From positions 17,428-81,427 of the forward strand of contig JACNJE010000090.1 of assembly GCA_014382705.1 (NCBI GenBank): a stretch of 64,000 nt of DNA, in the 5' to 3' direction. Source of the DNA: Verrucomicrobiota bacterium. Lineage in GTDB: Bacteria > Verrucomicrobiota > Verrucomicrobiia > Limisphaerales > UBA1096. Made by a program: the position numbers and the translations under genes. The notes beneath the pieces were generated by a model that made no database searches, was not told the DNA's origin, and saw nothing but the letters and a program-made list of their open reading frames with translations. The first letter of the stretch is position 1. Each line of letters starts with the position of its first letter. This document shows positions 33,251-38,000 of the stretch, piece after piece.

Positions 33251-34882
33251 GTGCCGGGAGTGGTAGCCATCGTCGGTCGGCCCAATGTCGGGAAGTCGGC
33301 CCTGTTCAATTGTATTGCGCGCAGGCGCGTTGCGATCGTGCATGACCGTCCCGGCGTCACGCGCGACCGGCTCAGTGCCGAGGTCGAGTGGCTGGGGCAC
33401 CCGTTCACGCTGGTGGACACGGGCGGCATCGGCTTGCTCAAGGGCGAGCGGGGCGGGGACGACTTTGCGCGGGAGATCGTCACCCAGGTCGAGGTCGCGC
33501 TCGAGGACGTGGACGTGATTTTACTCGTCGTCAGCGTGCAGGAGGGTGTCGCACCGATGGATTTCGAGGTGGCGGCCATGCTCCGCGAGGCCGGCAAGCC
33601 GGTGTTCGTGATGGTCAACAAGGTGGACACCGCCGCGCACGAGCCGGGCGTCGACGAGTTCGCCGAGCTGGGCTTCGAGCGGCTGTTCCCGGTCAGCGCG
33701 CTGCACGCGCGGGGCATCGACCTGCCGCTTGGCCAGGCGGTCGGCCTGTTGCCAGAGCGCTTGGCCAAGCCGGAGGAGCCGGCCGATGCCGAGCCGCCGC
33801 TCAACATCGCCATCGTCGGCCGCCCGAATGTCGGCAAGTCGTCGATCATCAACGCCCTCACTCGTTCGGAGCGGGTCATCGTCAGCGAGATTTCCGGCAC
33901 CACGCGCGACGCCATCGACGTGCCGTTCGAGGTCGAGACCGACGGCGTCCGGCAGCGCTACAACCTCATCGACACCGCCGGCATCCGCAAGCGGCGGCGT
34001 ATCAAGGATGCGGTGGAGTTTTTCAGCGTCAACCGTTCCGACAAGGCCATCGAGCGGTGCGACCTCGCCGTGCTGGTGATGGACGCCGCCGAGGGCGTCA
34101 CCGAGCAGGACAAAAAAATCTGCGACCGCATCACCGAGACCGGCTGCGCCTGCGTCATCGTCGTCAACAAGTGGGATCTGTTCCGGGCCGGACTGGAGAA
34201 GGCCCGAAAGCAGGAGGCCAAAAAGAGCGCCGCGCAGGGCGGCCGAAAGGTCAGCCGCAAGAAACAGGAACAGCTCATGTACGACGAGTTCGGCAAATGG
34301 GTGAAGTCGAACCTGTTTTTCATCGACTATGCGCCGGTGATTTTCACGTCCGCGATCGAGGGGTTCCAGCTCGACCGCCTGCTTGAGGCGATCCGCTACG
34401 TCAGTTCGCAGCTCCAGAAAACCACGCCGACGAGCCTGCTCAACCGCACGCTGCAGTCTGCGCTGGAGCGCAACCCCGCGCCCAGCTCAAAGGGCCACCG
34501 GCTCAAGCTCTTTTACGCCACACAGGTTCAGTCGAAGCCGCCGACGTTTCTGCTTTTTGTCAACCGCAAGGAGCTGCTGAGCGACAACTATTCGCGCTAC
34601 CTCATCGGCGTGCTGCGCAAGGCGTTCGGCTTCGAGGGCTGCCATATCCGGCTCGTGGCCAAGCCGCGCCCGAAAAGCATCGAGCCGGTCCGCCGCAAAA
34701 CGACGGTCAAAAGCCGGACGAGCAAAAAAGTCACCAAGCGCGAAATCCAAAAAATCCGCGACGAGACCAAGCGCAAGAAGGATGCGAAGAAAAAAGCCAT
34801 CCGAAAAGGCGCCAAGCCACCCGGAGCCAAGCGCCCCAAAAAACGCCCTGCCAAAAAAGACCGCCCCCGAAAGTCACCCTAA
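33251..34882 (+). CDS. der: Ribosome biogenesis GTPase Der (EngA) with long Lys/Arg-rich C-terminal tail
   Basis: Two G domains: VAIVGRPNVGKSALFN and IAIVGRPNVGKSSIINAL; KH-like domain; GTG start. Confidence 0.97.
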   Translation: MPGVVAIVGRPNVGKSALFNCIARRRVAIVHDRPGVTRDRLSAEVEWLGHPFTLVDTGGIGLLKGERGGDDFAREIVTQVEVALEDVDVILLVVSVQEGVAPMDFEVAAMLREAGKPVFVMVNKVDTAAHEPGVDEFAELGFERLFPVSALHARGIDLPLGQAVGLLPERLAKPEEPADAEPPLNIAIVGRPNVGKSSIINALTRSERVIVSEISGTTRDAIDVPFEVETDGVRQRYNLIDTAGIRKRRRIKDAVEFFSVNRSDKAIERCDLAVLVMDAAEGVTEQDKKICDRITETGCACVIVVNKWDLFRAGLEKARKQEAKKSAAQGGRKVSRKKQEQLMYDEFGKWVKSNLFFIDYAPVIFTSAIEGFQLDRLLEAIRYVSSQLQKTTPTSLLNRTLQSALERNPAPSSKGHRLKLFYATQVQSKPPTFLLFVNRKELLSDNYSRYLIGVLRKAFGFEGCHIRLVAKPRPKSIEPVRRKTTVKSRTSKKVTKREIQKIRDETKRKKDAKKKAIRKGAKPPGAKRPKKRPAKKDRPRKSP

Positions 34883-34910
34883 CGCTTGGCCAAGCGCGAG
34901 CGAGATCCAC

Positions 34911-35044
34911 GGGAGGGGCGAGTTCCACCTCGCCCCAAATCCCCTGTCAAACAAACATGGATGAACAGGGTGGACGGGAATGGTTTTGTGCTGCCTGTGC
35001 AGCAACTTTGGTTATTTTGGGGCAAGGTGGAACTTGCCCCTCCC
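34911..35044. repeat. BIME-like inverted pair of hairpins
   Basis: Arms 34911-34939 GGGAGGGGCGAGTTCCACCTCGCCCCAAA and 35016-35044 are reverse complements at 27/29 positions; each arm is itself a hairpin. Confidence 0.9.
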
Positions 35045-35052
35045 AGCCGGGG

Positions 35053-38000
35053 CTACGGCTGGGCCAAGCGGTGGAGTTCGTTGGCGACCTGGCCGATCAC
35101 TTCGGGCCAAGCGCCGGCGGTTTGCTGCCGGAACAGTCTTGTGTTCGGGTACCACGGCGTGTCGCCGCGACCGAGCAGCCAGCGCCAGTCGGCGGCGAAC
35201 GGCAGCAGCACCCACGTCGGTTTGCCCAGCGCGCCGGCCAAGTGCGCCATGGCGGTGTCCACCGTCACGACCAAATCCATCGACCCGATCAACCTCGCGG
35301 TCGAGGCGAAGTCGCTGATGTGCGGCGAAAGGTCGGTGACGCAGTCGGTGGCATCGATGATTCGGCGGGCCTCGTCGCTGGGCTCCAGTTGCAGGTTGAA
35401 CCAAGCGAAATCGCCGCACGCGCCGAGCAACTCAGCAAGCAGCCCGGCCGGCAGCGAGCGGTTGTCGGCCCACGAGCGGCTGCGGCCGGCCCAGACCACG
35501 CCGATTTTTAGCGTGCCGACATCGGGCGCGACTCCCGCCGGTTCTGCGAAAAGGTAGCGGCCGTTTTCGCCGTTGGGCACAGTCTCCGGCGTGGTGCCAA
35601 ACGCCAGCGGCGCGCTCAGCATCGGCAGCGCGAAGTCGGCACTTGGCACCGGTTCGCCCGGTTCGAAAACCTGCGACACGCCGGGGAGCGTTTGCAGGAG
35701 GGCGCTCAATCCCGGCTGGCACTCAATCACGACGCTCGCACCGGCGTTGGCTAAGTGAGGTGCGTAGCGGCAAAACTGCAGCGTGTCGCCAAATCCCTGC
35801 TCGGCGAACAGCAGCAGCGTTTTGCCGGCAAGTGGCTCGCCGTTCCAGCGGGGGATGCCGGGGTGCCTGGGCGCGAAGAGCGAATTGTCGGTCTGCCAAC
35901 GCGCCTCGTAATGTTTCCAACCGTCGTTCCAGCGGCCGGCGGCCAACTCGGCGATCGCGAGGTTGAATGGCCCGTCCGGGTTGCGCGGCTCGGCGGCAAT
36001 GAAATCGTTGAAAGCGGCGATGGCTTCCTCCACGCAGTTTTGCGCCTGCAACGCGACACCGAGGTTGAGCAGCGTATCGGGATGCCCGGGATGATGCCGG
36101 AGCACCGAGCGGCAGGTGGCTTCGGCGGCGGCGGGGTCGTCGCGCTCGAGTTGCAGCTTGGCCATGTTGACGCCGGCCATCGGCTGCCCCGGCTGCCCCT
36201 GCAGGATGTGCCAGAAACATTCCTCGGCGAGCGCGGATTCCCCAAGGTCGCGGAGCGTGAGGCCGAGGTTGACCATGGCGTCGGTGTAGTCGCCGTCGAG
36301 ATCGACGGCCCGCTTGTAGGCTTGGGCGGCGGTGAGGTAGTCGCCCCCGTCCTGCGCGACTTGGCCAAGGTTGAACTGCGCTGCGGCGAGGGCGGGGTTA
36401 AGCCGGGTCGCCCGCCGGTAGTCGCGCCGGGCCTCGGCCGCGTGGCCAAGCGCGTAGTGGGCATTGCCGCGGTTGAAATGAAAGTCGGCGCAGCCGGACT
36501 GCAACCCGATGGCACGGTCGTACGGGCCAAGCGCCTGCTCCGCTTGGCCAAGGCCGGAGAGCAGCAGGCCAAGCTCGTGGTGGTTCTCGGCGTCGTCCGG
36601 CTGCAACTCGATGGCGCGCTCGAGGCTTGTCCGCGCCGGGTCAGCCTGACCGTTTTCGCGGAGCACCCCGGCGAGCAACCGGAGGAGGGTCGTGTTTTCG
36701 GGGTCGGCCTCGGCGGCGAGTTGGTACTGCTCGATCGCTTGGCCAAGCCGGCCCTGCTGCTGGCAGTCGATCGCCTTGGCCAAGAGGCGGGAGGCGGCCG
36801 GGGAGGGCTGTTGCCGCAGCGCGGCAGCCACGTCGGCGATGACGCTGTCCCAGTCTCCGGGCCGGGGTTGGCGGAAAATGCGCATCGTCGGATACCACGG
36901 GCTGTCGCTGCGGTTCTCCAGCCAGCGCCATTCACCGGCATACGGCAGCAGCAGCCAGACTGACCGGCCCAGCGCGCCGGCCAAATGCGCCACGGCGGTG
37001 TCGATGGTGATGACAAGATCGAGTTGTCGCAGCAACAACGCAGTGGCCGCGAAATCGGTCATCCGGGAGTCCAAATTGGTGACATCGCCAAGCTGCGCCG
37101 AGTCGGCGGGATTAGGTTTTTTTTGGAGGCTGTAAAATTGGGCGGTGTTTGATCTGGTCAGCTTGGCCAGCGCAACGATTGGCACTTCGCGCGACTCGGG
37201 CCGGTTCGCCCGCCGTGAGCCGCGCCAGACGATCCCGACCGCCAGTTTATCCTGTTGGCGGCCCGGCAACGGAATGCCCGGGCCGGCCTTGAGCGGATTC
37301 ATGAACTCGTTGCCGGGAATGGAACCGGCGTCACAGCCGAACACGCGCGGGAGACTGAGCAGCGGACATTGCAGGTCGTGGGCCGGGGGGTGTTCACCGC
37401 GGGGGATGACCTTGTCGATCCCGTCGATGCACCGCATCAGCGGGGCCAGCTCGGGCTGGCACTCGAACAGGATGCGCCCGCCCCGTTGTTCGATCATCGG
37501 GAGGAACCGCGCAAACTGGATCGTGTCGCCGAAGCCCTGCTCCGCCCAGACGAGGAGGGTTTGCCCATCGAGCGACCCGCCGTTCCAACAGGGCTTGTCG
37601 AGGCGCGACTGGAGACTGTTGTAATGGGGCATCAGCAGCCGGTTCTCGTAGGCGGCCCAGCCGTTGGCGAAGTCGCCGGTTCGCAACAGCGCCAGTGACA
37701 GGTTGAACGCGATGCCGGGGGAGTCCGGGGCGAGTTGCCGCGCCTGTTCGTGCCGCTTCAGCGCCTCTGCCGGCTGGCCCAGCGCCATCAAGATGTTTCC
37801 GAGATTGGAAAACGATTCCGCGTGGTCCGGGAACTGGCTGACGAGTTTCTCAAAGACCAGTCGGGCTTTCTCGAATCGACCGTCACGCTTGAGTTGCAGT
37901 CCCTCCTCCGACAGAACGGGCAGCGTTTTGTCCGTGGACTCAAGGCGCAGTGCGAACCGCACCGTGTCAATGACACTCCGCCAGTCGCCGGGCGTGGGTT

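Follow-up and report, generated by a model that had tools for sequence, protein, structure and literature searches.

REP, BIME and REPIN elements and the RAYT transposases that accompany them have been described in E. coli, Pseudomonas fluorescens and Stenotrophomonas (PMC2817692, PMC3116915, PMC3686654). A REP is defined as a hairpin that has the tetranucleotide GT[A/G]G at its 5´ foot (PMC3686654, PMC6006769), and the way in which RAYTs read this tag is still being worked out (PMC8266576). The related GTAG super-family of palindromic repeats extends to those in the verrucomicrobium Opitutus terrae, and the tags of the family vary among GYAG, GYRG, GTRG, GTMG and GTGG (PMC3733652). The element described here shares with the former systems a tagged palindrome present in many intergenic copies, inverted pairs whose tags face outward, stem subtypes in which pairing is maintained, a RAYT gene between inverted REPs and a RAYT 3´ end caught between REPs. 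With the GTAG super-family it has in common head-to-head dimers and heterodimers, alternative complementary stem residues and PVC hosts. The tag, however, is different: published REPs carry GT[A/G]G, whereas the palindromes here carry GGAG, with a loop of 6 nt (TTCCAC), and GGAG is absent from the tag forms reported for the super-family. Because this one defining feature of REPs departs from the published definition while the architecture is that of a REPIN/BIME, the most fitting name for the element is a GGAG-tagged variant of the REP/RAYT type. Its nearest relatives are probably the GT-tagged REPs found beside sister RAYTs in Verrucomicrobiota. We put the probability that it is a REPIN/BIME-type nonautonomous mobile element of a GGAG-reading RAYT lineage at about 0.8.

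The element lies in a 64-kb stretch of DNA from an uncultured Verrucomicrobiota bacterium, referred to below as the window, which is 95% coding. It occupies the junction of der and a giant TPR gene on the opposite strand, as the earlier note had placed it, and its parts are the following.

33251-34882, plus strand: der (EngA GTPase), the upstream neighbour, outside the element
34884-34896: left direct repeat GCTTGGCCAAGCG, bordering the inserted segment, single copy in the congener G012
34897-35058: segment absent from the orthologous der-TPR junction of G012, by junction alignment
34911-34936, plus strand: left REP, G subtype, GGGA followed by GGGGCGAG-TTCCAC-CTCGCCCC; 22 exact copies of the subtype in the stretches examined
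34912-34915, plus strand: GGAG tag of the left REP at the hairpin foot, in the place of GTAG/GTGG in canonical REPs; register taken from REPs around RAYT genes
34937-35018: inter-REP spacer of 82 nt (about 16 nt in most pairs, from the spacings of genome copies)
34957-34981, minus strand: second repeat, inverted copy of the CATCCTGTTCATCCATGT type, also found between or beside other G-subtype REPs
34989-35004, plus strand: small terminator-like hairpin within the spacer, not above shuffled expectation
35019-35044, minus strand: right REP, A subtype, GGGA followed by GGGGCAAG-TTCCAC-CTTGCCCC, in opposite orientation to the left REP
35040-35043, minus strand: GGAG tag of the right REP, read from the sequence
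35058-35070: right direct repeat GCTGGGCCAAGCG, bordering the inserted segment
35053-39702, minus strand: TPR protein of 1549 aa with a C-terminal glycosyltransferase-9-like match, the downstream neighbour; its stop codon is inside the inserted segment

A repeat search of the window recovers the 29-nt arms at 34911-34939 and 35016-35044, inverted, 93% complementary with two differences, and 76 nt apart. Each arm is a hairpin, and the only difference between them is a single stem pair, which is G-C in the left arm and A-T in the right. The hairpin pattern GGGGCRAGTTCCACCTYGCCCC has exactly two matches in the window, at 34915-34936 (plus strand, G/C subtype) and 35019-35040 (minus strand, A/T subtype), against an expectation of 0.00 in 100 shuffles of the window. 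Folded as single-stranded DNA, the pair reaches -40.9 kcal/mol versus -23.3 on average after shuffling (z -6.1), and it folds far better than shuffles on either strand. Repeat search, pattern match and fold energy thus bear out the arms, hairpins and coordinates first noticed from the sequence. The neighbours end at 34882 (der, whose product matches TIGR03594 with 495 bits in a profile search) and at 35053 (the TPR protein, on the opposite strand).

The palindrome is one of many in its genome (G000, 4.02 Mb). BLAST of 34905-35050 against this genome gives 71 matches, and GGGAGGGRCNNNTTCCACNNNGYCCC, the tagged pattern with free stem positions, occurs in 51 forward and 39 reverse copies (90 exact copies; 0 for the reversed control). 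Subtypes and spacings were read from 40 stretches fetched around these copies. Three stem subtypes dominate there: A (GGGGCAAG/CTTGCCCC), G (GGGGCGAG/CTCGCCCC) and D (GGGACGAG/CTCGTCCC). Typically two REPs face each other with their tags outside and about 16 AT-rich nt between them, often as A+D or A+G; single REPs and pairs with widely differing spacers are also present, and the closest arrangement to the copy in the window, a G-subtype REP, a spacer and an A-subtype REP, is found at L072 (G000:C163). Intergenic regions or contig ends hold 39 of the 47 copy clusters; some copies overlap genes and others lie between tandem or divergent genes. The short palindrome, its high copy number, its mainly intergenic placement and the inverted pairs with tags outside are those of REPs and BIMEs (REPINs), and with head-to-head pairs, copies throughout the genome and a RAYT belonging to the family the earlier description of the pair as BIME-like was apt.

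The same note had explained the two differing positions by compensatory substitutions and had concluded that structure is under selection. The arms do differ at a single stem pair, but a local compensatory mutation at the der-TPR pair is rejected: each subtype is common across the genome, with 22-23 exact copies in the stretches examined, so the arms do not record a change at this locus, and each of them belongs to a standing subtype of its own. Selection on structure holds in general, through covariation across genera, although the two arms alone do not show it. A scan of 84,980 species left four stem positions free and did not require pairing. Among the matches listed, nearly all from Verrucomicrobiota, full pairing is seen in 60 of 76 contexts, compared with a mean of 9.6 and a maximum of 21 for shuffled partners, and 12 different paired stems occur. 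Copies within one genome are related, so these counts do not represent independent events; when each distinct stem among the matches listed is counted once, 12 of 27 pair versus 1.5 after shuffling. The stem is therefore kept by covariation, as in REPs and BIMEs, and the repeat is neither single-copy nor structurally unconserved in relatives, the finding that would have spoken against the earlier reading. Most simply, the constraint on the stem reflects recognition of a single-stranded hairpin by RAYT and not a host function.

Several congeners keep the der-TPR junction without the element, e.g. G012 (Der 94% identical), G007, G016 and G020. In G012 the stop codons of der and the TPR gene overlap, with no gap and no hairpin; in G000 a 162-nt segment (34897-35058) stands between the aligned parts of both genes and supplies the TPR stop codon. 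The comparison covered about 0.9 Mb of G012, where both flanks of 11 G000 sites, der-TPR included, could be aligned, and a REP is present in none of the 11. Because these orthologous junctions of the congener are without the element, it is by sequence comparison a lineage-specific insertion.

The same junctions bear on a possible host role at the RNA level, in which the hairpins would act as terminators or stabilisers of mRNA 3´ ends between convergent genes and their spread would be secondary. Many copies are located 3´ of genes, ATTT often directly follows the A-subtype hairpin, and 9 clusters sit in convergent gaps, when only 10 such gaps longer than 60 nt were counted in the stretches examined. 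But the insertion itself makes gaps, since der and the TPR gene of G012 end on each other without gap or hairpin, and the convergent excess is for this reason poor evidence of termination. Copies also occur between tandem and divergent genes, some of them overlapping genes. A terminator scan gave zero matches on either REP hairpin here: neither has the GC stem followed by a T run of an intrinsic terminator, and the single weak hairpin in the spacer does not exceed shuffles. Nothing in Rfam comes near the gathering score for the element. A terminator role at the der-TPR junction is possible but unsupported, and we regard a primary RNA function of the family as unlikely.

We consider it very improbable that the element is a classical MITE, with terminal inverted repeats of about 30 bp and a DDE transposase that makes target duplications. 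The pair is indeed a near-perfect inverted repeat, and direct repeats of 10-14 bp edge four insertions (34884-34896/35058-35070 at der-TPR; L055; L051; L071, where the repeat is TTATTTCCAGCG). These duplications, however, enclose sequence beyond the REP pair instead of REP ends, REPs also occur singly and in pairs whose spacers vary widely, and no transposase other than RAYT was found between ends of this kind. In three of the four, der-TPR included, the direct repeat is the palindrome CTTGGCCAAG. In G000 the inserted stretch often exceeds the REP pair in length, and several such segments include other repeats. The longer segments and the direct repeats at their edges do not fit the described IS200/IS605-type insertion, and this counts against mobilisation by RAYT; capture, recombination or repair may have produced them.

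The reading of the pair as a RAYT-dependent REPIN/BIME calls for a transposase partner, for which the earlier note had suggested a search. By looking between distant inverted REPs, we located a RAYT that PF01797 misses: in Verrucomicrobia bacterium ADurb.Bin118 (G047, L162/L252), a protein of 153 aa is encoded between inverted GGAG-REPs that lie 606 nt from each other. It has the HuH motif MPDHLHLF and the tyrosine motif YIRENPVRKGL, and so both motifs typical of RAYTs (HuH, YIxxNPV). It matches the NCBIfam family REP_Tyr_transpos (NF047646) with 72.1 bits (E 4e-20), below the curated cut-off of 80, and the solved TnpA-REP 4er8 with E 2.5e-4. Homologues are present in 145 of the 293 genomes of the order. 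A cognate RAYT flanked by inverted copies is thus found in this relative, and the genome of the window has only a C-terminal (3´) RAYT fragment (G000:C25:7162-7326), between GGAG-REPs with near-identical spacers; the five best matches of this fragment are all in the GGAG clade described below. Nunvar et al. (PMC2817692) have described RAYT 3´ ends captured between REPs. Because no intact RAYT of the GGAG clade was found in the G000 assembly (90.7% complete, 181 contigs, several of which end near repeats), present activity of the element in this genome is unproven.

Least credible of all is that the IS200/IS605-like enzymes L031 and L032 move the element: no other intact Y1 transposase was found in G000, but the fetched flanks (1.5 kb in most cases) of 39 PF01797 loci of these genomes contain no GGAG-REP and many of the loci are flanked by NTAG hairpins of their own, which speaks against Y1/IS200 transposases as partners. 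At L032 (G000:C35) and many other PF01797 loci the IS200-like genes are bounded by inverted GTAG/ATAG hairpins, e.g. CCGAGGGC-aac-GCCCTCGG. Judged by sequence, these would be distinct REP-like families, each with a transposase of its own. A typical IS200 TnpA (L120) has no REP-like hairpins in its flanks.

The unusual tag goes with essentially one RAYT clade. REPs around RAYT genes set the register, which reads GTAG followed by GG in most of the order and GGAG followed by GG here, and of 79 hairpins found in the genome of the window without requiring the tag, 72 have GGGA in front of them. In a tree of 29 RAYTs, L252, L253, L254, L256, L267 and L278 form one clade (support 99/98), and all six have GGAG-type flanks. 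Two of them are less clear: L267 is counted as ambiguous, as its constant GTGGAG fits either GTGG plus AG or GGAG, and L254 has GGGAG sequences without a hairpin that our script scored as clean. The other 23 RAYTs have GT-type tags wherever the tag is readable.

The protein from ADurb.Bin118 matches E. coli TnpA-REP (4er8) in the catalytic half, with the HuH and Tyr motifs and the W94-Q95-R104 region shared; W94 is Phe in this protein. The alignment sets the WDT of the clade at W99-E100-H101 of the E. coli enzyme, so that in this protein and its clade E100 is replaced by Asp and H101 by Thr. Both E100 and H101 are among residues of the GTAG-recognition region of that enzyme (PMC6006769), and H101 has been reported to contact GTAG. 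In the first set, position 101 is Thr in the GGAG clade and His in the GT set (Gln in L258). We then used a held-out set of forty further loci, 18 of which had readable tags. All 13 GT loci have His at 101; the five GGAG loci have Thr (L372, L381, L382, L395) or Arg (L365). Arg101 has already been reported in RAYT subclasses with canonical tags (PMC6006769), and Arg is therefore not diagnostic. Position 100 fails to separate the tags, Asp occurring with both GGAG and GT. RAYT homologues with an FDRQLR or YDRQLR motif (L362, L364, L366-L369, L374-L376) show no clear flanking REPs and are possibly domesticated single-copy genes; the FDRQLR proteins (e.g. L362, L364, L366-L369) were left out of tag scoring.

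The correlation between tag and residue is a strong lead and not proof, because the GGAG loci come mostly from one lineage and have low statistical independence. In vitro, with other RAYTs, tag positions 3 and 4 are the most critical and guide the CT cut (PMC8266576), and a change at position 2 fits this; on this basis GGAG would be expected to keep the cut at CT. Tentatively, at slightly less than even odds, we propose that in a RAYT lineage of Verrucomicrobiota GGAG has replaced GT[A/G]G as the guide tag, that the equivalent of H101 (Thr, once Arg) helps choose the second base, and that tag and transposase have co-evolved; changing this residue could then move the specificity. The GGAG clade and the matching change at a tag-contacting residue offer a natural experiment, which makes the question of tag reading testable.

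The most likely mechanism starts from two small facing palindromes with their tags outside, each made of an 8-bp stem, which has GGAG at its 5´ foot, and the loop TTCCAC. A RAYT of the GGAG clade, a single-strand HuH/Y1 transposase, would bind the hairpin on one strand, read the tag, with residue 101 possibly helping to read its second base, and cut beside it. As the probable mover of the element, RAYT would then carry either the pair or a longer stretch that it bounds to new sites. Stems would be kept because the enzyme needs a paired hairpin.

Exact copies of GGGAGGGRCNNNTTCCACNNNGYCCC occur in 26 of the 293 genomes of the order. A scan of 84,980 species with this pattern returned at least 65 stretches, and among those listed all but two, from Spirochaetes ADurb.BinA120 and Azospirillum sp., are titled Verrucomicrobiota or, in a single case, match a genome of the order. 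RAYT-based repeats are thereby widened in an under-studied phylum, and searches restricted to GTAG miss families such as GGAG-REPs.

Other repeats are present as well. The palindrome CTTGGCCAAG occurs at 56 places in the window (0.07 expected from base composition), e.g. at 34885, 36360 and 48028, and GCTTGGCCAAGC at 28, both of them in and between genes; G012 has 479 CTTGGCCAAG in 626 kb. CTTGGCCAAG looks like a HIP1-type highly iterated palindrome, for which we found no paper on Verrucomicrobiota. Another repeat, CTCTCCCTCTCCCC..CTCCCGCTGGGAGAGGG, often adjoins G-subtype REPs (L051, L062, L063, L069). In ADurb.Bin118, a REP pair lies within a 363-bp tandem repeat present in three copies (L219, 1480-2265).
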